DNA of 25,998 bases, from positions 1 to 25,998 of IMG/VR virus record IMGVR_UViG_3300017917_003721; one strand, 5' to 3'. Made by a program: the position numbers and the translations under genes. Origin of the DNA: a virus. Positions 789 through 25,965 of this stretch are shown here, one piece after another. Under the pieces are notes generated by a model. That model was not told the DNA's origin, did no database searches, and saw nothing but the letters and a program-made list of their open reading frames with translations. Positions within the stretch are counted from its first letter, which is position 1, and the number at the start of each line of letters is the position of its first letter.

Positions 789-1652
789 ATGCAGATAAAA
801 CCAGTAGCAACATGGGTATTTGAGCCCTATTTAAGAAAAAAATCTAACATGTGGTCTCGGACCAGTCATATGTTAGTCGCGGCAAAACTGGCAATTGATA
901 ATGTATGCAGAATCTACGGAAAACCTCAAGTTTATACAGATACACTCGGGCGTGACATATTACAACAATTAACTACCAACGCAGATTACATTGTTTGTTA
1001 TGATAACATATACGATCAAATTAGCTCTAATTTATGGATGTATCCTAAGCTATTAACATATCAACAGCAAACTGATAGGTACTTTCATTTTGATTTAGAT
1101 TTAATTTGTCTTAGACCATTTAGTGGTAATGTATTTGATGCAAATATTGTGACTCAAAATACTGAACAGGTTACAGAAATATATACCATCGAGTCTTATA
1201 ATGTAAAAGAAGTTCGAGATTTTTATACATTACCAGAAATATTTTATAGGCAAGATATAGATCAAGTTCCTGTATATAATTTAGGATTTTTTTACATAGA
1301 CGATCTAGGATTTAATCAAGAATATGCAAACACCTGTTTAAAAATTGTCAACGACAATAAACAGGTCATAGACACTCGGTTACCTGTTATTAGTCCCTGT
1401 ACAGTAGAACAACAAACATTGGGGCTAATGTTGAGAGACCGACCCGATCTTAAAATAGAAACATTGGTTGACATACCCAACAAATTACAAAGATGGAATT
1501 TTGAATTTATACATTTCTTCGGTTGGGCTAAAGATCATCAACATTATAAAGCGAAACGATGGCATCAATTATGGTTATCTCCGCATATTAATGACACCAT
1601 TATATCAATTGCAAACAGCATAGATTCCTTAATAGGGTCTCAGAATGTGTAA
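789..1652 (+). CDS. Glycosyltransferase-like protein with DxD motif
   Basis: 287 residues. The central FHFDLDLICLRPF (residues ~98-110) has the hydrophobic strand plus DxD arrangement of GT-A glycosyltransferases that bind nucleotide sugar and metal. No signal peptide or membrane segment is visible, so a cytoplasmic enzyme is expected. The start ATG follows a TAAATA box by 6 bases and has no Shine-Dalgarno. The 3' end overlaps the radical SAM gene by 8 bases, suggesting co-translation. Donor and acceptor are unknown. The GT-A fold is an inference from the motif and predicted pattern; the exact family is not recognised. Confidence 0.5.
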   Translation: MQIKPVATWVFEPYLRKKSNMWSRTSHMLVAAKLAIDNVCRIYGKPQVYTDTLGRDILQQLTTNADYIVCYDNIYDQISSNLWMYPKLLTYQQQTDRYFHFDLDLICLRPFSGNVFDANIVTQNTEQVTEIYTIESYNVKEVRDFYTLPEIFYRQDIDQVPVYNLGFFYIDDLGFNQEYANTCLKIVNDNKQVIDTRLPVISPCTVEQQTLGLMLRDRPDLKIETLVDIPNKLQRWNFEFIHFFGWAKDHQHYKAKRWHQLWLSPHINDTIISIANSIDSLIGSQNV

Positions 1653-3144
1653 TGCAATAATTATAGGTGGTATATCCTATGATAAATTTGGCAGAGCACT
1701 AGGCCCTTTTCGTTTGAGAACATCTGCAGAAAATGCAGGGTATTCAGTAAAACTGATCGACTATGCATGGGGACTAGAGGAATACCAATTACTAAAATTA
1801 CTTCGAACACTGATTACCGATGAAACTAAAGTTTTAGGTATAAGTGCCGCATGGTTCGATTTTCACTATGATGATACGGCAAATAAATGGGCCAAGCAAT
1901 CTTTTTTTAATGTGCTAAAAATTCTGTATCCTAATATAACAATAGTTACAGGAGGCACAAAAACTAATGCTCATCCTTTGTTGTTTAATAATTCAGACTG
2001 GTTCATTACTGGATTTAGTGACATAGCATTTGTAAAGTTATTAGACCATGTTCATGGAAAACAAACTAATTTAAAATACTGGAAAGAATCTAATGTTAAA
2101 ATCATTAAAGCCGATGAACATTACCCAGTATCAAATATGGATGACATTGAAACTGTTTTTAAAAAAGAGGACGGCTTTTTAAGTTATCAGCCCTTGCCGT
2201 TAGAAGTTAGTAGAGGATGTATCTTTAAATGTGCGTTTTGTACACATCCTTTCTTAGGAAAGAAAAGCTACGATTACATACGATCAGCGGAAAGCATTGC
2301 TCGAGAATTAGAAAGAAATTATAACTTATTCGGTACCTACAGGTATACAATTTCTGACGATACTTTCAATGACAGTATTGAAAAATTAGAAATAGTAAAA
2401 AGAGCAATCGATCTAGCCAAGTTATCTAAGTTCGAATTTGTTGGATATATAAGACCAGAAATTTTAGTAACTAAAAAAGAAATGATACCTATGTTAACAT
2501 CCTTGGGATTAAAAGGGTGTCACTTAGGTATAGAATCAATGAATAGTAATGCTAGAAAAACCATTGGGAAAGGTATGGACATTAACAGAGTTCTTGACGT
2601 GGTAGAAATATTACGAGATAATAACGTTAGAGTTCATGCTAGTTTTATTACAGGCCTCCCAGGAGAAACGGAAGAAGAAATGTATCAAACTAATAATTTT
2701 CTTATAGAAAATAAAAATAGATACTTTCACAGTTGGCGATGGAACGCACTGGGGTTAGCCAGCAGTAATATTGGTGACGGATACAGTCTTTTTGAAAAAA
2801 ATCCAGAAGAATATGGATTTAAAACCTTCAAGGTTAACAATTCCGTATGGTTAAACTGGATAAATGATGTAGGAATTACTAAAGAAAAGGCCGGAGAAAT
2901 AGCCGGAAATTGTAATGCTAATTCATGGACGCACTGTAGATTTGCCGGCTGGACATTGGCTCAAGCATGGTTTCATAACCTTACCGAAGAACAGATAAAT
3001 CGTCCATGTATGTTTACTAATATCGATGCTATAGTAAAACAAAATGGTTTAGAAAGATCAAATTTTAATTATCATTGGAAGTGTGGCAGAGTCCGGTTTA
3101 TTGCACCTGTCTTGAAAACAGACGATCCTGAAAAGGGTCCGTGA
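1645..3144 (+). CDS. Radical SAM protein with B12-binding-like N-terminus
   Basis: 499 residues. The SRGCIFKCAFC motif places C192, C196 and C199 in the CX3CX2C pattern that holds the 4Fe-4S cluster of radical SAM enzymes. The first ~150 residues (IIIGGISYDKFG..., VLGISAAW..., IVTGGTKT) resemble the Rossmann-like cobalamin-binding domain of class B radical SAM proteins. HLGIES and ITGLPGETEEEM fit later strands of the radical SAM barrel. It could be a methylase or another B12-dependent radical enzyme; the substrate is unknown. The last 22 codons lie within tRNA-Ser (3077-3168), and the TGA stop is in its T arm, so the natural C-terminus may have been replaced when the tRNA landed there. It overlaps the preceding gene by 8 bases. 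Confidence 0.82.
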   Translation: MCNAIIIGGISYDKFGRALGPFRLRTSAENAGYSVKLIDYAWGLEEYQLLKLLRTLITDETKVLGISAAWFDFHYDDTANKWAKQSFFNVLKILYPNITIVTGGTKTNAHPLLFNNSDWFITGFSDIAFVKLLDHVHGKQTNLKYWKESNVKIIKADEHYPVSNMDDIETVFKKEDGFLSYQPLPLEVSRGCIFKCAFCTHPFLGKKSYDYIRSAESIARELERNYNLFGTYRYTISDDTFNDSIEKLEIVKRAIDLAKLSKFEFVGYIRPEILVTKKEMIPMLTSLGLKGCHLGIESMNSNARKTIGKGMDINRVLDVVEILRDNNVRVHASFITGLPGETEEEMYQTNNFLIENKNRYFHSWRWNALGLASSNIGDGYSLFEKNPEEYGFKTFKVNNSVWLNWINDVGITKEKAGEIAGNCNANSWTHCRFAGWTLAQAWFHNLTEEQINRPCMFTNIDAIVKQNGLERSNFNYHWKCGRVRFIAPVLKTDDPEKGP

Positions 3145-3168
3145 GTTCGAATCTCACCGCTTCCACCA
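3077..3168 (+). tRNA. tRNA-Ser(TGA)
   Basis: Acceptor GGAAGTG/CGCTTCC, anticodon loop CTTGAAA, long variable arm (type II), T arm GTGAG-TTCGAAT-CTCAC and encoded CCA. The discriminator is A rather than the G usual in bacterial Ser tRNAs. It overlaps the radical SAM coding region by 68 bases. Confidence 0.85.
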
Positions 3169-4559: not shown

Positions 4560-4682
4560 GCCGCTGTAGTGTAATGGTTAGCACTCTAAAGAAGGTGATC
4601 CTGTCTTTAGGATACATACAGCAATTTTTCTATTTCCACTGTTAATGGAGAGGACTGGGTTCGAATCCCAGCAGCGGCGCCA
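4560..4682 (+). tRNA. tRNA-Asn(GTT) carrying a ~48-base insert (element E3)
   Basis: Acceptor GCCGCTG/CAGCGGC, G73, CCA, D stem GTGT/GCAC and T arm CTGGG-TTCGAAT-CCCAG form one tRNA. The anticodon arm (CTGTTAA-TGGAG) is separated from the D arm by an insert at about 4587-4634. Removing it restores a perfect CTCCA/TGGAG stem. The insert contains GTGATCCTGTC, TTTAGGATAC and TACAGCAA, the motifs of E1, E2 and E4, here in contiguous order. A normal tRNA-Asn(GTT) exists at 11734, so this copy may be processed by splicing or be defective. Confidence 0.65.
4587..4634 (+). other. Element E3: intron-like insert in tRNA-Asn
   Basis: ATCCT/AGGAT (with GT/AC beyond a bulged G) closes a short hairpin, followed by TACAGCAA. 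The junction falls in the 5' strand of the anticodon stem, with one-base ambiguity. It is far too short for a group I intron. Confidence 0.5.
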
Positions 4683-4808
4683 GTTTTAGGATACTTACAG
4701 CAAATTCTATCAAACGATAGGTAGTTGGTTCGATTCCAACATTACGCTCCATGCGTAGTTAGCTCATTAGGTAGAGCATTCGTCAAACGAAAGTATCCTG
4801 TTTTATTT
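4683..4808 (+). tRNA. Element E4: circularly permuted tRNA, anticodon ATC
   Basis: AGGATAC (4688-4694) pairs with GTATCCT (4793-4799). Inside, the 3' half of a tRNA (4708-4751, ending in CCA) comes first, then one T, then the 5' half (4753-4784). Joining 4784 to 4708 gives a regular 76-base cloverleaf: acceptor GCGTAGT/ATTACGC, D stem GCTC/GAGC, anticodon arm TTCGT-CTATCAA-ACGAT (one T-T mismatch), T arm GTTGG-TTCGATT-CCAAC, T73, CCA. The anticodon would be AUC (Asp GAU codon), which is odd with T73, so the identity is unsure. See the findings. Confidence 0.6.
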
Positions 4809-10026: not shown

Positions 10027-10030
10027 AGTT

Positions 10031-10213
10031 TTGTTGAAAGTGTGAGATGTAGAGAAAGGTAGTGTGGGCACACATTACTGAGCTAACGGTGCAAGTCCGA
10101 CAACACAGCAACTGGCAAGTAACTACTATCACTCACGAACCCTAAGCTAAGGTGGAGGCGCTGAATAATTTCCACAAAATGCGGTCAATGTTGTGGTGAC
10201 CGGCTTTCAACAA
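10031..10213 (+). ncRNA. Structured segment R3, ~183 bases, unknown class
   Basis: TTGTTGAAAG (10031-10040) pairs with CTTTCAACAA (10204-10213). Inside: GTGAG/CTCAC (10042-10046, 10132-10136), GTAG/CTAC, an 8-bp hairpin GTAGTGTG/CACATTAC with a 4-base loop (10059-10078), CGG/CCG around TGCAAGT (10087-10099) and CCACAA/TTGTGG (10172-10196). Nested stems point to a folded RNA with a multi-branch core. No ORF and no known motif recognised. Confidence 0.6.
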
Positions 10214-10217
10214 ATTC

Positions 10218-10224
10218 ATAAATA
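10218..10224 (+). promoter_or_regulatory. ATAAATA box before initiator tRNA
   Basis: CATAAATAG ends 3 bases before the initiator tRNA. It may be a late promoter or chance. Confidence 0.3.
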
Positions 10225-10227
10225 GAT

Positions 10228-11137: not shown

Positions 11138-11740
11138 ATGCCTTCTAGTATCTCAAAAATTATTCGAGATCTTTCAAATATAGAAATCGATACTATTGTT
11201 TCAGAGTTAAACGGTGCGCCCGAAGAAGCATGGGTTACTCATGCTTCAAAAAGACATTTGCACAGAACTCATTTGAGGGAAGGTAGATCTATACATTTGC
11301 ATTTTATAGATCAAAATAGCATGACTTGTGTGCTTGTGGATGATGTGAGTTACCACAGCTTTTTTCCTAAAACAATCGAGATGCTAAAAGAATTAGCAGG
11401 CCCTAATCTTTTAGGAAGATGCTATTTTCATAGATTAACTCCTGGCCAGCAGATCTTAAGGCATAACGATTCATGGGTCACACAAGCAATGCCTATCAAA
11501 CATAGAATGCAGATGTATCTAGATATTCCGGATAATTCAATTTTAATTCTTGATGGAAAATCTCAAGACATCGGTGCTTATAAATATAAACTTATTGATT
11601 TTGCTTTAAACTTGGACCACTATTATAAGAACAACGGATCTAATCCTTGGATATTTTTAGTGTTTGACATCCTTGAGGATTATGCTAAAATCAATAATAT
11701 TGATCAAGATCATATATACGCAAACAAATCTATTCCCTGA
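11138..11740 (+). CDS. Hydroxylase-like 2OG oxygenase (4)
   Basis: 200 residues. CYFHRLTPGQQILRHNDSW gives the H109-x-D111 pair preceded by a typical strand; HRMQMYLDIPDNS follows and H161 in NLDHYYKN may be the distal iron ligand. This order resembles Asp/Asn hydroxylase-like and phage 2OG oxygenases. Its N-terminal segment is rich in His and Arg (KRHLHRTHLREGRSIHLHF), which is unusual. The TGA stop lies inside the acceptor stem of tRNA-Asn at 11734. The start follows a TAAATA box by 5 bases. Confidence 0.55.
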   Translation: MPSSISKIIRDLSNIEIDTIVSELNGAPEEAWVTHASKRHLHRTHLREGRSIHLHFIDQNSMTCVLVDDVSYHSFFPKTIEMLKELAGPNLLGRCYFHRLTPGQQILRHNDSWVTQAMPIKHRMQMYLDIPDNSILILDGKSQDIGAYKYKLIDFALNLDHYYKNNGSNPWIFLVFDILEDYAKINNIDQDHIYANKSIP

Positions 11741-12849: not shown

Positions 12850-12925
12850 GCCCTTATAGCTCAGCTGGTAGAGCAACTGATTTGTAATCAGTAGGTCCCG
12901 TGTTCGAATCATGGTGGGGGCACCA
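12850..12925 (+). tRNA. tRNA-Thr(TGT)
   Basis: Acceptor GCCCTTA/TGGGGGC, A73, CCA; anticodon arm ACTGA-TTTGTAA-TCAGT. The T stem is imperfect (CCGTG/CATGG). Confidence 0.88.
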
Positions 12926-13265
12926 TACAACCCCGGATCCCGTACCGGTTAGTAAACGGGGGCTTATTGTCCTAGCCATACCGGACACGGCGCATTGGAT
13001 CTGCCGCAAGGCCCGCGTTACATGGGCGACTTGAGAAATCACAAAGGCAGGGACGCTAACCTGTCTAAATGGAAAAGTACGTAGACGGAGTAGACAGCCC
13101 AGTCTAGGGTTCCTGTGGTGGGAGTAGCTAGACACTTTATAAAAACTCTTTGAGTAGCTACACTTGGAGTATCGTTAGTAGAAGTAAAGTCGACTACACT
13201 TCGAAGACGCCAAGGAAGAGAGGGGCTACCGTGGATTCAAGCGCCGCAGAGAGTTCCTATAAAGT
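12926..13265 (+). ncRNA. Structured segment R4, ~340 bases, unknown class
   Basis: This 340-base stretch between tRNA-Thr and tRNA-Gly has no credible ORF and looks richer in G+C than nearby genes. It holds CCCCG/CGGGG (12931-12935, 12957-12961), a GNRA hairpin GCC-GCAA-GGC (13003-13012), GCCC/GGGC, CAGG/CCTG (13048-13063) and a direct repeat of GAGTAGCTA..ACACTT (13122-13137, 13152-13165). It resembles the large ornate RNAs that accompany phage tRNA arrays (GOLLD and ROOL classes), but is shorter and not recognised. Confidence 0.55.
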
Positions 13266-13343
13266 GCGGGTAGACAGGACAAGGGGCGTCCAGCAGCCTT
13301 CCAAGCTGAAGATCGCGGAGTTCGACTCTCCCTACCCGCTCCA
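13266..13343 (+). tRNA. tRNA-Gly(TCC)
   Basis: Acceptor GCGGGTA/TACCCGC, T73 as usual for Gly, CCA; anticodon arm GCAGC-CTTCCAA-GCTGA; D stem GGAC/GTCC set off by extra bases after the acceptor. The T stem has one mismatch. Confidence 0.82.
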
Positions 13344-13352
13344 TAATTTAAT

Positions 13353-13427
13353 GCCTGGATAGCTCAGGGGGAGAGCGTCTGCTTTACACGCAGAGGGTCC
13401 GCGGTTCGAAACCGTGTCCAGGTACCA
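13353..13427 (+). tRNA. tRNA-Val(TAC), second copy
   Basis: Acceptor GCCTGGA/TCCAGGT, A73, CCA; anticodon arm TCTGC-TTTACAC-GCAGA. Confidence 0.9.
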
Positions 13428-13548
13428 AGTTTTAGGGAACTAGCACTCCCGGACCTCGTTTGTCGTTGTGCTAGTTTTAAACAACAATGGACTATCAAGC
13501 GAAAGCTAGCCTCCTAGAGGTTGTGTAGTTAGTTGTGCCCTAATTTTA
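13428..13548 (+). ncRNA. Structured segment R5, ~115 bases
   Basis: AGTTTTAGGG follows the tRNA-Val CCA, the same lead-in as elements E2 and E4. TTAGGG (13432-13437) pairs with CCCTAA (13538-13543). A 9-bp hairpin AACTAGCAC/GTGCTAGTT (13438-13476) and a second arm ACAAC/GTTGT (13481-13485, 13520-13524) with a GAAA tetraloop (AGC-GAAA-GCT) give a three-way-junction-like fold. It may be a distant relative of the E elements; there is no anticodon arm. Confidence 0.55.
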
Positions 13549-13551
13549 TTT

Positions 13552-13629
13552 CGGAGTGTAGCGCAGTCTGGCTAGCGCACCTGCTTTGGGAGCAGGGGGT
13601 CCAAGGTTCGAATCCTTGTACTCCGACCA
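13552..13629 (+). tRNA. tRNA-Pro(TGG)
   Basis: Acceptor CGGAGTG/TACTCCG, A73, CCA; anticodon arm CCTGC-TTTGGGA-GCAGG. Confidence 0.92.
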
Positions 13630-13645
13630 ATTAAGGAGTTATTAT

Positions 13646-13798
13646 ATGCCAATGTATGAAACTACGGTAAAAACACCACAAGGTGAAGAAAAGAAGAGAG
13701 TCTATGCGGCAACACCGCAGGAAGCTAAGAAACTTTTTGAGCAACTATACGGTGGCCCTAGAGCAGTTCCATATATACCGCATGTAGTACCGAGTTAA
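13646..13798 (+). CDS. Small hypothetical protein (50 aa)
   Basis: AAGGAG lies 7 bases before ATG 13646; the longer frame starts in tRNA-Pro and is rejected. The product begins MPMYETTVKTPQGEEKKRVYAATPQEAKKLFEQLYG: a beta strand, a turn and a helix with EAKKLFE, as in small phage proteins with a strand-helix 'AxxxEA' pattern. It ends in a Pro-rich tail. It precedes the 69-residue gene by two bases. Function unknown. Confidence 0.6.
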   Translation: MPMYETTVKTPQGEEKKRVYAATPQEAKKLFEQLYGGPRAVPYIPHVVPS

Positions 13799-13800
13799 AA

Positions 13801-14010
13801 ATGAATAATATCGAAATTAATGATTGGGTAGAAATTCTACAAGAAAATTTAAAGCCGTTTAAAATAACTGCTCCTGTTGCTCATTTCGGGAGAGTTGTTG
13901 AAACTTCTCAAATCTCTTCAAAAGTTATAGTAGAAATTTGGGGAAGACCTAATAGTTGCACTAACTATTTTCCATTAGAGTTTTCAAATCAACGCCTGAG
14001 AAAGGTATAA
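13801..14010 (+). CDS. Small hypothetical protein with SH3/KOW-like pattern (69 aa)
   Basis: The product is beta-rich: INDWVEIL..., GRVVE, KVIVEIWG, PLE(F)SNQRLRKV. The order 'D.V.I...GRVVE....V.VE..G.....PLE.LRKV' is like the small SH3/KOW-type barrels common in phage accessory regions, but this is only a pattern match. It is co-oriented with, and two bases after, the 50-residue gene. Confidence 0.5.
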   Translation: MNNIEINDWVEILQENLKPFKITAPVAHFGRVVETSQISSKVIVEIWGRPNSCTNYFPLEFSNQRLRKV

Positions 14011-14036
14011 GTACTAGTAGTTAGATAACTAGACTT

Positions 14037-15194
14037 ATGAGAAAAAAATTAGCAATATTAGGTAGAGGCACTGCCGGATGCTTATCACTGGCACATTTTT
14101 TAAGACAGACTAATTGGGATATCGATCTTTATTACGATCCTAATATTCCACAACAGACTGTCGGCGAAGGATCTCAATTAAACTTACCCCATGCACTGTA
14201 TAATAATCTAGGGTTTCAGCACACTGATCTAGCTAAACTCGACGGTAGCTTCAAAGCAGGGATTTTTAAATCCGGTTGGGGATTAGAAGGTAAAGAGTTC
14301 TTTCATCATTTTCCCCCGCCAAGTCTTGCCTATCATTTTAATGCAGTAAAATTGCAAGAACACATTTTAGATCATGCTAGGACCAGCAGTAGATTTAAAG
14401 TCATAGAAGCGTACAAAGAACATAGTAACATAGATGCAGACTATATTCTAGATTGTTCCGGTAAGCCAGCTAACTACGATGATTTTATCATAGCCGATAG
14501 CATTCCAGTTAATTCTGTACATGTTACCCAATGCTATTGGGATTCACCTAAGTTTCAATATACATTAACTCTAGCCCGACCATATGGTTGGGTTTTCGGC
14601 ATTCCGTTAGCAAATCGATGTTCAATAGGTTATATGTACAACAACAATATTAACACACTCGACGAAGTTAAAGAAGATGTCAAAGAAATTTTTACTCAAT
14701 ATAATCTAGTACCTAGCACTACTACAAACACTTTTAGCTTTAACAATTACTATAGAAAAGAAAACTATAGTCAGCGAGTAATTTATAATGGAAATGCCAG
14801 TTTCTTTTTAGAACCCATTGAAGCGACATCAATTGGATTAATGAATAAAATTATAGCTCATGCACACGGTATTTGGAAAGATGGTGTCGAGCTCATACAT
14901 TTACACAACGATTATCTAAGAGAGATTGAAGAAATTAAAATCATGATGGCTGTACATTATTATGCAGGGTCAAAATGGGACACAGAATTTTGGAGGACTG
15001 CTCACGATAAAGCGCAGCCTGTAATAGATTCTGCGTTGAATAATTATCGTTTTAAAGATACTATTAAACAGGCTGAAACTTATAAACCCGGAGATCAACT
15101 TTTAGGCCATTTTGGAACCTGGGGTGAAGCAAGCTGGCAAGAAAACCTTAAGGGGCTAGGAATATTTTCAAAAATTAAGGGAATGATTAAATGA
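14037..15194 (+). CDS. Flavin-dependent halogenase-like protein (1)
   Basis: 385 residues. LAILGRGTAGCLSLAHFL is the N-terminal FAD-binding GxGxxG of the tryptophan-halogenase family; VGEGSQLNLP matches the block after strand 2 (VGE.t.p). YGWVFGIPLANRCSIGY corresponds to the family block that carries WxWxIP, here as GWVFGIPL, so the first Trp is missing. The enzyme would halogenate or otherwise oxidise a substrate with FADH2 and O2. A flavin reductase partner is not in this window. It is similar over its full length to the next gene and overlaps it by four bases (ATGA). Confidence 0.72.
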   Translation: MRKKLAILGRGTAGCLSLAHFLRQTNWDIDLYYDPNIPQQTVGEGSQLNLPHALYNNLGFQHTDLAKLDGSFKAGIFKSGWGLEGKEFFHHFPPPSLAYHFNAVKLQEHILDHARTSSRFKVIEAYKEHSNIDADYILDCSGKPANYDDFIIADSIPVNSVHVTQCYWDSPKFQYTLTLARPYGWVFGIPLANRCSIGYMYNNNINTLDEVKEDVKEIFTQYNLVPSTTTNTFSFNNYYRKENYSQRVIYNGNASFFLEPIEATSIGLMNKIIAHAHGIWKDGVELIHLHNDYLREIEEIKIMMAVHYYAGSKWDTEFWRTAHDKAQPVIDSALNNYRFKDTIKQAETYKPGDQLLGHFGTWGEASWQENLKGLGIFSKIKGMIK

Positions 15195-22287: not shown

Positions 22288-22839
22288 ATGAATTTAGATC
22301 TAATGGTCATCGATAATTTTTATTCTAATCCGGATAATGTTCGTGCCTATGCCTTAGAACAACCTTTCGATGTTAAGGGTAACTATCCTGGTTCAAGAAC
22401 TAAACCTTACCTGCCTCAAGATGTAAAAGATGCTATACAATATTGGATGGCATTTGCTGGAGAAATCACAGACTGGTTTGAAAATACAGGATACACCGGG
22501 GCTTTTCAAATAGCCACAGCACAGGATAGAACCTGGATACACAGCGATCATTTTAATATGTGGGCAGGAGTTTGTTACCTTACACCCGATGCTCCTCATA
22601 CTGGCGGCACGGCACTTTATCGTCATCGTGCTACTGGATTTTATAGACGCGGCGACATAGAAGTTGGCGACGGCTACGATTATACCAAGTGGGATAAGTT
22701 TGACACTATCGGAAACAAATATAATCGTTTGATCTTATATAGGGCAGATTTATTTCATGCCAGTGTTGATTACTTTGGAGACAATCTACACAATGGTCGT
22801 TTATTTCAAACGTTCTTCTTTAACACAGAAAAATACTAA
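22288..22839 (+). CDS. DUF6445-like Fe(II)/2OG-type oxygenase
   Basis: 183 residues. RTWIHSDHFN gives H85-x-D87, GVCYLTPDAPHTGGTALY the middle strands, RLILYRADLFHASVDYFG the distal H157, and NGRLFQTFFF the R171. This matches the DUF6445 family of phage and bacterial proteins with a 2-oxoglutarate-oxygenase active site. It is a different branch from the four Asp/Asn-hydroxylase-like genes. It probably hydroxylates a sugar or protein in the same pathway as the adjacent transferases. Start spacing is one base after the previous stop. Confidence 0.7.
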   Translation: MNLDLMVIDNFYSNPDNVRAYALEQPFDVKGNYPGSRTKPYLPQDVKDAIQYWMAFAGEITDWFENTGYTGAFQIATAQDRTWIHSDHFNMWAGVCYLTPDAPHTGGTALYRHRATGFYRRGDIEVGDGYDYTKWDKFDTIGNKYNRLILYRADLFHASVDYFGDNLHNGRLFQTFFFNTEKY

Positions 22840-23591
22840 TGCCTAAAATTGTTCAAGTTATATTCTCTACAAATAGATTAGAATATCTCATACCCACCCT
22901 ACGATATATGCAGAATATCAATTATTATGGGTGCGAAGTACACAGAGTTATCATCGACGATTATCCTAGAACTAGAAACAATACAATGTTTTTAGAACTC
23001 TGCAAATTGTACGGTATTGATGAAATCATCCTCAATAACGAAAATAAAGGTCTGAGTCTTAACTGGACTGATTTTTATAAACTTATAGCAGAAAGAGATT
23101 ATGATTATATTTTTCATCTTGAAGACGATGTTAAAATAATGCAGCCGGTGTTAGTCACAGATTTAATTGAGCTTTTAGAAAACAATTCTGATGTTAGCCA
23201 AGTTCAACTAGCAAGACAGGCATGGTATAGCCATGAAGAGGATCCCAAGGCTAGCAGTACAGACTTTATCTACAAAAATTATCGATATATCAAAGGCAGT
23301 TTAATTTTTTCTCCAATGGCTAGTTTGTGCCCAATTTCAGTGGCACGATTACCGATTGCCCAAGAACAGGGTTGCAATCTCAATGAAGGTATTATTGGAC
23401 AGTATATGTTTGAACGACTTAATAAAGTGTCGTATAATGTTAGAAACTATTACGGCGGGCCGATTATCAATCATATTGGAGAATGGTTTGTAGGACGCAG
23501 GGTTTTACCCACTGAACCCAGCTATGAAATGTTTGCCCATTACGATCCGAATTTAAAATATTATAGTAGGGACGGAAGATCATTTCCATGA
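22839..23591 (+). CDS. GT-A glycosyltransferase (GT2-like)
   Basis: 250 residues. KIVQVIFSTNRLEYLIPTLRYMQ, VHRVIIDDYP and DYIFHLEDDVKIMQP provide the GT-A start, second strand and LEDD metal/nucleotide-sugar motif. Later GRRVLP and NHIGEW could be acceptor-side blocks. Its start overlaps the DUF6445-like stop by one base and its stop overlaps the deaminase start, so the operon is continuous. Confidence 0.7.
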   Translation: MPKIVQVIFSTNRLEYLIPTLRYMQNINYYGCEVHRVIIDDYPRTRNNTMFLELCKLYGIDEIILNNENKGLSLNWTDFYKLIAERDYDYIFHLEDDVKIMQPVLVTDLIELLENNSDVSQVQLARQAWYSHEEDPKASSTDFIYKNYRYIKGSLIFSPMASLCPISVARLPIAQEQGCNLNEGIIGQYMFERLNKVSYNVRNYYGGPIINHIGEWFVGRRVLPTEPSYEMFAHYDPNLKYYSRDGRSFP

Positions 23592-24106
23592 AAGAAAAGT
23601 TTATTAAGATGTATATGGATTGGGCTCTACGTGCTGCAGAACTCAGCCATGCCCGCAGGCTTCATGTAGGTGCAGTCATTGTCAAAGACGATACTGTGAT
23701 CAGCTACGGCTATAATGGTATGCCCGCAGGATGGGATAACAACTGCGAAGATGTAGAATGGTGCTCAGCAGGTGGTTGGCTAAGCCCCGAAGAAATTGAA
23801 GAAGGCTGGCCATATGAAGGTGTATACTTAGATGCAGATGGTAACGAAATGCAGAGCCGATATAGGCTTAGAACTAAACCAGAGGTACTTCATGCAGAAT
23901 CAAATGCTATTGCAAAATTGGCGAAGTCTAACAACAGTGGGCTTGGTGCCGATCTGTTTGTTACTCATAGTCCTTGTATTGAGTGTGCCAAACTTATCTA
24001 TCAATCTGGTATTCGCCGTGTATTTTACCGCGAAAATTATCGGGATGACACTGGAACAGAATTTTTACAAAAATCTAGGGTAGAAGTAATAAAAGTAGAC
24101 CATTAA
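23588..24106 (+). CDS. dCMP deaminase
   Basis: 172 residues. VGAVIVKDD...YGYNGMPAG, H102-A-E104 and S-P-C130-I-E-C133 are the zinc-binding and catalytic blocks of dCMP/cytidine deaminases; the ~45-residue insert with NNCEDVEW is typical of phage dCMP deaminases. It makes dUMP for thymidylate synthesis during DNA replication. ATG overlaps the upstream gene by four bases. Confidence 0.88.
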   Translation: MKEKFIKMYMDWALRAAELSHARRLHVGAVIVKDDTVISYGYNGMPAGWDNNCEDVEWCSAGGWLSPEEIEEGWPYEGVYLDADGNEMQSRYRLRTKPEVLHAESNAIAKLAKSNNSGLGADLFVTHSPCIECAKLIYQSGIRRVFYRENYRDDTGTEFLQKSRVEVIKVDH

Positions 24107-24163: not shown

Positions 24164-24886
24164 ATGACTAAATTTGCTTGGTACAGCCTAGATCGGCAGA
24201 ATATTATAAATTTTCTGCACCTTATTGATCCATTGTTGGTTTCTCAACAGCTAACCATTCCTCAATTTCATAGAATTTTAGTCAATCATATCAAAAAGTA
24301 CCTACCAATTAAATTTAAAAAAAATAAAAATCCTTTAGTAAAAGTTAATGAAGTCTGGGTAGGTGGAACCTATTACAGCGATTTTGATCAAGAAAGAAAG
24401 AAGTGTATTCAGCTAGTGTTAGAGTATTCTCTTTTTGACGAAGAAATTAAAATTAGTAGAAGAAATTGGAACAAAATGTGCTGTGGTATTGCAGATACAT
24501 TACTGCATGAAGTCATTCACATGAGGCAATATCGAAGAAGAAAATTTAAAATTCTTCCCGATTATGCCAGTACAGCTGAAAAACAAGAACTGCGGCAAGA
24601 GCAAAGTTATCTAGGATGCTCAGACGAAATAGATGCTTATAGCTTTAACATCGCCTGCGAGCTATATGACAAGTTTAACGGCGACCCCGCTAGCATCATA
24701 AATTATCTTAATGAAAATCAAAAGGGCAAACGTAGAAGGCACAATAGTTGGAGAATGTATCTAAAAGCCTTTCAACATGATCACAACCATCCTATAATAC
24801 AAAGAGTGAAAACTAAAGTAGTCCGATACCTACCATTTGCTGAAATCGGCAAGCCTTATCGAAATAAAGATTGGATTGATCGTTGA
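24164..24886 (+). CDS. Zinc metallopeptidase-like protein (HExxH)
   Basis: 240 residues. ADTLLHEVIHMRQYRRR gives H115-E116-x2-H119; SDEIDAYSFNIA after it may supply the third ligand (Glu), the pattern of SprT-like and related gluzincin-type phage proteins. AAGGAAC precedes the ATG. The N-terminal 60 residues are basic and helical. A target cannot be named. Confidence 0.6.
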   Translation: MTKFAWYSLDRQNIINFLHLIDPLLVSQQLTIPQFHRILVNHIKKYLPIKFKKNKNPLVKVNEVWVGGTYYSDFDQERKKCIQLVLEYSLFDEEIKISRRNWNKMCCGIADTLLHEVIHMRQYRRRKFKILPDYASTAEKQELRQEQSYLGCSDEIDAYSFNIACELYDKFNGDPASIINYLNENQKGKRRRHNSWRMYLKAFQHDHNHPIIQRVKTKVVRYLPFAEIGKPYRNKDWIDR

Positions 24887-24917: not shown

Positions 24918-25145
24918 ATGAACATCACAGCCCGTACCACAAAAATCAAAACCATTCGGCAGACTGATCCTAATTTCCAGATTATAGACGGAATGGTGAT
25001 TTCTCCCCGAGCGGGTTTTGAAATAAACCAAAGTTGTCCGAGAGAATACAAAATGATTATATCAGAATGTATTAATAACGGATGGCTCAAACCTGTAGCG
25101 CATGTTACAGAACGTGAATTTATTTTCATGGGGCTGACCAAGTAA
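24918..25145 (+). CDS. Small hypothetical protein (75 aa)
   Basis: MNITARTTKIKTIRQTDPNFQIIDGMVISPRAGFEINQSCPREYKMIISECINNGWLKP..., beta-rich with a short helix. TTAAGG lies 2-6 bases upstream of the ATG, too near for a good ribosome site. No family recognised. It precedes the dehydrogenase gene by 13 bases. Confidence 0.55.
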   Translation: MNITARTTKIKTIRQTDPNFQIIDGMVISPRAGFEINQSCPREYKMIISECINNGWLKPVAHVTEREFIFMGLTK

Positions 25146-25147
25146 TT

Positions 25148-25153
25148 TAAATA
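25148..25153 (+). promoter_or_regulatory. TAAATA box before dehydrogenase-like gene
   Basis: TTTAAATAATAGTATG, box 5 bases before ATG 25159 and no Shine-Dalgarno. Confidence 0.4.
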
Positions 25154-25158
25154 ATAGT

Positions 25159-25965
25159 ATGAATTTTTTTAAAAGACCAAAAATAGGAATCGTCGGACTA
25201 GGGTTTGTCGGCGGTGCAATAAGAGATGCAATGGCAGATCATTGCGAACTTGTATTAGTAGATAAGGATCCAAATAAAGCAAGTCATACCTTTACAGATC
25301 TAAAAGACTGCGAGGGAATATTTGTCTGTGTTCCCACACCTTTTAGTGACGACGGCAGATGCGATACTAGTATTTTAGAGTATGTCCTTGAAAATCTTAA
25401 AGACTACGAAGGTGTTATTATCAGTAAATGTACAGCACCTCCGCTGGTATATCGAGAACTAAACAGAAATCATTCTAATTTAGTACATGCTCCTGAATTT
25501 CTTACTGCTGCCAATGCTCACATTGATTATATAACGGGTAAGTTTATTATTATTGGCGGGCGTGTTTCCGCATTTAGAAATGAAGCCGAACGTATTATTC
25601 GACTAGGGCAACCCGAAGCAGAACATGTAGCTCATTGCACTATCGAAGAAGCTAGTCTAGCCAAATATACCATTAATTCTTTCTTGGCAACTAAGGTTAC
25701 ATTTATGAATGAACTATACCAGTTGTCAACTCTATTAGGAACTGACTATAATACAGTAGCACGAATGGTAACCATGGATGAACGTATTGGTAAAAGTCAT
25801 ATGCGTGTTCCAGGTCCAGACGGCGAATTCGGATTCGGAGGGATGTGTTTTCCGAAGGATACAAGTGCTCTATTAAAATTTGCCAGCGATGTTGGCGCAA
25901 ATATGAATGTTCTCGATGCGGCTGTTAAGAAAAATACGCTATTGAGGTTGACAGAACCTAAATAA
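25159..25965 (+). CDS. UDP-sugar 6-dehydrogenase-like protein, short form
   Basis: 268 residues. KIGIVGLGFVGGAIRD is the NAD-binding GxGxxG; VCVPTPF, SKCTAP, VHAPEFLTAANA and EASLAKYTINSFLATKVTFMNE are family blocks; FGFGGMCFPKDTSAL carries the catalytic Cys (C230). Family members usually have 390-450 residues and a C-terminal UDP-binding domain, which is absent. It would oxidise a nucleotide sugar to the uronate, feeding the glycosyltransferases, if the missing domain is not needed. Confidence 0.78.
   Translation: MNFFKRPKIGIVGLGFVGGAIRDAMADHCELVLVDKDPNKASHTFTDLKDCEGIFVCVPTPFSDDGRCDTSILEYVLENLKDYEGVIISKCTAPPLVYRELNRNHSNLVHAPEFLTAANAHIDYITGKFIIIGGRVSAFRNEAERIIRLGQPEAEHVAHCTIEEASLAKYTINSFLATKVTFMNELYQLSTLLGTDYNTVARMVTMDERIGKSHMRVPGPDGEFGFGGMCFPKDTSALLKFASDVGANMNVLDAAVKKNTLLRLTEPK

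Follow-up and report, generated by a model that had tools for sequence, protein, structure and literature searches.

Bacterial Y RNAs of the YrlA type have a terminal stem that binds the ring of Ro60 (Rsr) and another end that mimics the D, T and acceptor arms of a tRNA, and a structure of the Salmonella YrlA is available (PDB 6CU1; PMC8394870). A suggestion from Wolin's group is that the tRNA-like domain of Salmonella YrlA might compete for anticodon nuclease (PMC7790460). Among phages, mycobacteriophages are on record as having Y RNAs (Chen et al. 2014, through PMC12282133 and PMC9569102), and in the Listeria phage CKA15 three very abundant RNAs near an Rsr-like gene were tentatively given the same name (PMC12282133). 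Permuted tRNA genes of red and green algae and of archaea also place the 3' half before the 5' half between flanks that pair, and there a decoding tRNA is spliced out. It was with these genes that an earlier note had compared the phage locus described here, taking the flanks as an intron and the RNA as circularised and then matured to a tRNA; the note knew of no such gene in a tailed phage. The phage element is not without precedent, since the YrlA design already places a permuted tRNA-like domain on an RNA that binds Ro60 (PMC8394870), and Y RNAs have already been reported from mycobacteriophages, as far as Chen et al. 2014 is cited in PMC12282133.

The window (the whole stretch of 25,998 bases analysed, from IMG/VR virus record IMGVR_UViG_3300017917_003721, probably a fragment) contains 30 tRNAs by ARAGORN. 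On its plus strand positions 4688-4799 are, we conclude with good confidence, a phage Y RNA of YrlA design, with 4560-4682 as the other circular permutation. The order of arms in 4688-4799 is 5' stem strand, ACAGCAA, small hairpin, T-arm, acceptor hairpin, D-arm and 3' stem strand, and on re-reading the sequence the permuted order of T-arm, acceptor hairpin and D-arm that had been reported earlier stands with its coordinates. The flanking stem pairs perfectly as had been said, and at 9 bp is longer than the 7 bp first given, with the 5' strand AGGATACTT at 4688-4696, proposed to be Ro60-binding, and the 3' strand AAGTATCCT at 4791-4799, after which comes GT (a CCTGT end is common among relatives). 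Beside the 5' strand lies the ACAGCAA motif (4697-4703), then a small hairpin CTATC/GATAG in the anticodon-arm position (4707-4720), the T-arm GTTGG-TTCGATT-CCAAC (4724-4740), a 7-bp acceptor-stem hairpin (4741-4759, made of the 3' strand ATTACGC at 4741-4747, the loop TCCAT at 4748-4752, which is variable in relatives, and the 5' strand GCGTAGT at 4753-4759), the D-arm GCTC-ATTAGGTA-GAGC (4762-4777) and, 3' of it, TTCGT (4779-4783). For the linear RNA 4688-4799 the folding energy is −37.0 kcal/mol, where shuffled sequences give −18.7 ± 2.9 (z −6.3).

The minimum-energy fold places the small hairpin at 4707-4720, and this hairpin shares bases with the anticodon stem proposed in the earlier note, in which 4714-4717 form the 3' side and pair with 4780-4783. 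In the window copy the competing local fold (CTATC/GATAG plus a TTCG..CGAA hairpin) beats the anticodon-stem version by 8 kcal/mol. The minimum-energy fold was dropped as the sole guide to structure, since the competing anticodon-stem helix covaries widely, and both forms may be real states.

The YrlA model of Rfam (RF02553) matches over its full length at 4697-4807; the score is 27.6 bits, the gathering score 69, and relatives reach up to 41 bits with none above 69; because the gathering score is missed, the element is described as YrlA-like and outside RF02553. The same model also hits 7 of 14 control genomes weakly, an effect probably of tandem tRNAs, in which the arms come in this order too, and tandem-tRNA junctions in the window itself score 20-23 bits. 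In view of the control genomes a YrlA match was rejected as sole proof. The element shares with YrlA a long terminal stem made from its 5' and 3' ends (in YrlA the part that binds Ro60/Rsr), the T-arm, closed acceptor hairpin and D-arm in permuted order, and a short helix in place of the anticodon stem. It differs from YrlA in its low score, in the motif NTACAGCAA, which is absent from the Rfam consensus, in the extra hairpin at the anticodon position and in sitting within a phage tRNA array.

Relatives were sought in viral contigs with a 16-base stem-motif pattern AGGATACNTACAGCAA and a pattern of the permuted layout, and being retrieved by the motif itself they are a biased sample of about 57 distinct permuted elements after parsing, the window copy included. 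The search for the same layout in related phages, put forward earlier as a check, thus gave 56 further elements of this anatomy. The motif NTACAGCAA beside the 5' stem strand is common to the window element, these 56, the mini RNAs described below and three RNAs of the mycobacteriophage Wilder, and its ACAGCAA end has the same place in the permuted, mini and inserted versions. The relatives run from stem strand to motif ending ACAGCAA, T-arm, acceptor hairpin, D-arm and a pairing 3' strand, mostly followed by GT. Their terminal stems vary with both strands changed together, as in AGGATAC, AGGTTAC/GTAACCT, GATTCAC/GTGAATC and GGACTCC/GGAGTCC.

The anticodon stem of the earlier note (27-31/39-43) gains support from the relatives. 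Across 33 non-redundant permuted elements, 82 of the 99 cells for 27-43, 28-42 and 29-41 are paired, where shuffled partners give a mean of 44 with none of 5000 shuffles reaching 82 and shifted registers give 28-52, and in the same 33 elements all four Watson-Crick pair types occur at 27-43 and 28-42. This covarying stem lies at the position of the corresponding helix in the YrlA consensus. Among relatives the outer pairs of the small hairpin also change together (CTAAC/GTTAG, ACAAC/GTTGT, ATAAC/GTTAT), and in the sub-lineage of the window it reads CTATC/GATAG, CTAAC/GTTAG or ACAAC/GTTGT; the anticodon loops there differ (CTATCAA, AACATAA, AACTCAA, CTAACTC, ACAACTC) and often have no U33. The encoded CCA had been read as a tRNA feature, yet an NCCA is correctly placed in only 6 of 53 relatives.

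The stem and motif are found as well on mini RNAs of 50-75 nt (about 60 nt) without any tRNA body. An anticodon-arm-like hairpin (7-nt loop, U33, purine 37) occurs in 13 of 27 of these mini RNAs against a shuffle mean of 0.65. As a further form, a near-complete tRNA body in normal order but with a truncated acceptor stem is fused directly into the Ro60 stem in four viral contigs (L025 at 6501, minus strand; L018 at 2813, minus; L027 at 7906; L133 at 2349, minus). A separate conserved Y-RNA-like class, the AGGATGACTACAGCAA elements, is marked by hairpins rich in GC and, ahead of the 3' stem, by one that resembles a T-arm (viral contigs L151 at 1676, minus; L161 at 1677, minus; L163 at 10280).

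Directly upstream of the permuted element, at 4560-4682 on the same strand, is a tRNA(Asn)-like gene in normal order that carries the same module as an intron-like insert, identified from cmscan, ARAGORN and some 100 similar elements, so that in the window both permutations adjoin each other. It scores 44.4 bits in cmscan as a tRNA with a long insert and is not called by ARAGORN on the window, which calls a tRNA-Asn (GTT) once most of the insert is omitted. The insert (4588-4635) falls between tRNA positions 28 and 29; positions 27-28 (CT, 4586-4587) and the CCA at 4636-4638 complete, without it, a 5-bp anticodon stem around the loop CTGTTAA (Asn GUU), and the body has an encoded GCCA end. The insert reads GTGATCCT, a short loop, AGGATAC and ATACAGCAA, that is, both stem strands of 4688-4799 in reverse order and closed by a loop, the 3' strand with one extra G, plus the motif, of which ACAGCAA is at 4618-4624. 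At 4595-4615 the insert can form the stem proposed to bind Ro60, GTGATCCT/AGGATAC, in which a single G is bulged and the loop is GTCTTT. The minimum-energy fold of the window copy has a different hairpin (CTAAAGAAGG/CCTGTCTTTAG) in its stead, and hairpins equivalent to 4595-4615, with compensating changes, are seen in L040, L192, L194, L203, L208 and L209.

A pattern search free of the stem gave about 20 further normal-order elements from viral contigs, mostly with hairpins whose stems carry compensating changes, and a second D-arm pattern with a parser brought the collection to about 100 distinct elements. The parser demanded the Ro stem, the acceptor pairs and the T-arm pairs, which are thus not independent evidence, and did not demand the anticodon-stem pairs, which hold in 207 of 300 cells against 116 with shuffled partners (none of 3000 reaching 207). 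Ignoring the insert, 67 of 101 have a perfect anticodon stem, where shuffled linkers give 25.6 expected and a maximum of 34, and the insert break comes mostly after nucleotide 28 or 29. Of the 67, 50 have U33, and the base at 37 goes with that at 36 in the manner of real tRNAs (G36-G37 in 16, U36-A37 in 23, A36-A37 in 6). From this completion of the anticodon stem across the insert it follows, as a reading of sequence, that the permuted and the normal-order form share one design in two circular permutations, the opening lying at the acceptor end in one case and at the Ro stem in the other. The form with the module at 28/29 is apparently new, and no account of it was found in the open-access literature, whose coverage is incomplete and omits the main reviews. 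It seems to have been overlooked, as public genomes label such genes oversized tRNA or pseudo-tRNA: in Aeromonas phage Aeh1 it is annotated as a tRNA-Val of 122 nt, 2.7 kb downstream of a Ro-like gene, in Serratia phage BF, at 296567-296691, as 'tRNA-Pseudo', and in Aeromonas phage PX29 likewise as an oversized tRNA or pseudo-tRNA. Aeh1 was rejected as an exact ACAGCAA example, its copy reading ACCGCAA.

A protein partner is suggested by the mycobacteriophage Wilder (KX580962), in which a gene annotated Ro-like RNA-binding protein is followed by three RNAs of this anatomy, one permuted and two mini. The Wilder Y RNAs have the same motif and arm order as the window element, from which they differ in keeping a full anticodon arm with loop CTGTTAA and in their stem sequence. 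In the E. coli phage Alf5 (KX377933) such RNAs come directly after the Ro-like gene and within the tRNA array: the gene spans 22627-24042, two mini RNAs follow at 24381-24446 and 24547-24604, and a permuted one at 25088-25213. Pfam TROVE (PF05731) matches neither the Wilder protein nor that of L007 (a 26-kb record whose genes are in part common to the window phage, as read from the ORF lists, and which has such an RNA in the same stretch), and a TROVE search found none in 50 Y-RNA records. As a marker of Ro60 it was dropped, since it misses the annotated Wilder protein, and PHROG family phrog_850 was used instead, which both proteins match together with Pfam DUF2828 and DUF7788. Because the window is a 26-kb fragment in which the TROVE search, with the same model that misses the Wilder protein, found no Ro gene, the link of the window element to such a gene rests on its relatives.

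The kinship to Ro60 is visible by fold comparison, a sequence search of the PDB with the phrog_850 protein giving no significant Ro60 homologue. Modelled with a mean pLDDT of 79, the L007 protein aligns with Ro60 structures for some 400 residues, with Z scores of 18.9 for TROVE 9kop, 17.9 for the Thermus phage phiLo Ro60 9l5y, 15.6 for the Ro autoantigen 2i91 and 13.5 for Deinococcus Rsr 2nvo. The next rows of the fold library are vWA domains near Z 10, and rows beyond Ro60/TROVE, mostly single vWA domains, were not used. On this model the phrog_850 protein is predicted to have the HEAT-like ring plus vWA fold of Ro60. It is present in 39 of 50 Y-RNA records versus 3 of 24 controls (Fisher p 1e-7), a comparison weakened by the shorter average length of the control records, and one of those three control records (L075) itself carries such an RNA. 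Normal-order records have it in 12 of 20 cases versus 0 of 21 coincidental pattern matches, several of the latter above 100 kb, and a further set in 26 of 33. Relatives of the Ro-like protein are encoded in 677 public phage records, with hosts that include Escherichia, Salmonella, Vibrio, Listeria, Campylobacter, Aeromonas, Mycobacterium and others. In two contigs (L193 and L216) the start codon of the Ro-like gene is immediately preceded by a truncated normal-order element that has an ACAGCAA motif, perhaps a leader through which the protein regulates its own mRNA. Listeria phage 20422-1 and Pectobacterium phage CBB each have an RNA ligase gene in the vicinity of the Ro-like one (L352 at 12861-14072 and L350 at 12940-14196), hinting at a tRNA repair neighbourhood.

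The phage Ro60-family ring protein would then bind the RNA at its terminal stem and motif. The tRNA-like domain, which is open at the anticodon arm, would project outward from the protein and, by analogy to bacterial YrlA, may act as a gate or tether for RNA-handling enzymes. In 4560-4682 the tRNA body of ordinary order would have the Ro60 stem, closed by a short loop, inserted into the 5' strand of its anticodon stem. The anticodon arms that many versions display could act in the infected cell as bait for, or competitor of, the enzymes by which tRNAs are cut or modified at the anticodon arm, and because so many versions display one we tentatively favour this as the likeliest job, while holding it to be short of an even chance. 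Recurrent anticodon arms on otherwise different RNAs fit a competition for nucleases better than decoding, and the RNA ligases of some phages of this kind fit a life among tRNA-cutting enzymes.

Other explanations for 4688-4799 and its neighbour have to be set against the Y RNA reading. A permuted tRNA gene, cut at the boundaries of the anticodon arm, circularised, and opened by RNase P and RNase Z to yield a decoding tRNA, would account for the 3' half standing before the 5' half and for the 76-mer joined from them, which folds as a cloverleaf as had been claimed and which ARAGORN calls tRNA-Asp (ATC). It would account as well for the perfect 5-bp anticodon stem that joining gives in 23 of 37 permuted relatives, 16 of the 23 with U33. 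Yet the AUC anticodon is an odd one, and the phage elements differ from the algal and archaeal genes in keeping neither anticodon nor CCA; the anticodon loop, which a decoding tRNA would conserve, is not kept in the sub-lineage of the window. The circularised-intron mechanism is further opposed by the occurrence of its supposed flanks, as one stem-motif module, on small RNAs that have no tRNA body, and by the co-occurrence of this module with a protein of Ro60 fold; in the phage elements a proposed Ro60-binding module takes the place of the intron. To our knowledge no splicing endonuclease of that type occurs in bacteria, and a permuted tRNA gene seems very improbable. Still harder to credit is that two broken tandem tRNA genes have decayed to leave a 3' half before a 5' half between chance flanking repeats, for although the same local order arises where tRNA genes follow each other at a short distance, and such junctions are matched by the YrlA model, neither the covariation across many phages, nor the conserved motif with its terminal stem, nor the association with a Ro-like gene is expected of remnants.

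The intron idea itself revives as a rival for the neighbouring normal-order element 4560-4682. In this form the module would be removed at 28/29 or 29/30 and the halves ligated by a phage RtcB or another RNA ligase, with the Ro60-like protein as a splicing chaperone and the permuted genes following the same route. The perfect anticodon stems seen without the insert, the frequency of U33 and the tRNA-like pattern at 36-37 are what a new tRNA intron would show, and the RNA ligase genes near the Ro-like gene in 20422-1 and CBB could supply the joining. A73 is equally common in the normal-order elements and in ordinary tRNAs, therefore charging is possible and the intron is kept as an unlikely rival, if a better one than a permuted tRNA gene. 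Against it, splicing of the mini versions would leave nothing, and no nuclease candidate is at hand. The normal-order elements also have an encoded CCA more rarely (14 of 104 against 179 of 495 ordinary tRNAs of the same stretches) and are enriched in C73 (14 of 104 against 18 of 495 neighbouring tRNAs), and several of their anticodons duplicate an ordinary tRNA of the same stretch, often so where the stretch is rich in tRNAs; in the window the repeated anticodon is Asn-GTT, with the ordinary tRNA at 11734.

The phage Y RNAs have a further resemblance in the Class I RNAs of Dictyostelia, eukaryotic RNAs of about 60 nt that end in CUGU, have a conserved motif of 11 nt next to the 5' strand of a variable terminal stem, and are reported from no other organism (PMC7919456). 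Their Rfam model RF01414 matches the phage mini RNAs over their whole length in 19 of 35 records at 24-37 bits, versus 1 of 29 controls, a rate inflated in that the phage set was chosen by part of the Class I motif. The best E-value is 5e-7, all matches fall below the gathering score of 41.5, and the window element (4689-4800) scores 16 bits; L306 (9092-9345) is among the phage mini Y RNA regions that match. The joint occurrence of motif, place, end and length was not chosen, and the mini versions have in common with Class I RNAs the variable terminal stem, the motif CUUACAGCAA beside the 5' stem, the CUGU end and the length. Chance as the source of the match was withdrawn given these features (PMC7919456) and the counts. 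Unlike the phage RNAs, the Class I RNAs are eukaryotic, have no tRNA-like part and have an RRM protein as described partner, and the scores stay below gathering; kinship, or convergence on a common protein, is possible. More widely drawn, and still more tentatively held than the bait proposal, a modular Ro60-docking element might be present in both tRNA permutations, on bare anticodon arms and, intron-like, at 28/29-29/30, for a Ro60-based display of anticodons (as decoy or in tRNA processing), with the Class I RNAs as eukaryotic kin in kind.

Phage Y RNAs, previously noted in mycobacteriophages and guessed at in a single Listeria phage (PMC12282133), now appear as a large family recognisable by motif and stem inside the tRNA arrays of many phages. 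Should the idea of anticodon display hold, Ro60, a protein of largely unexplained function in bacteria, would be tied to the struggle of phages with defences that cut tRNA. Elsewhere in the window, the stretch 10027-10227 between two tRNA-Met genes has a motif-like GTGCAAGTCC with ACAGCAA at 10105 and is neither called as tRNA nor a clear gene. The window tRNA-Asp at 702-776 overlaps the 3' end of ORF 49-744, and the tRNA-Ser at 3077-3168 overlaps the 3' end of ORF 1645-3144.
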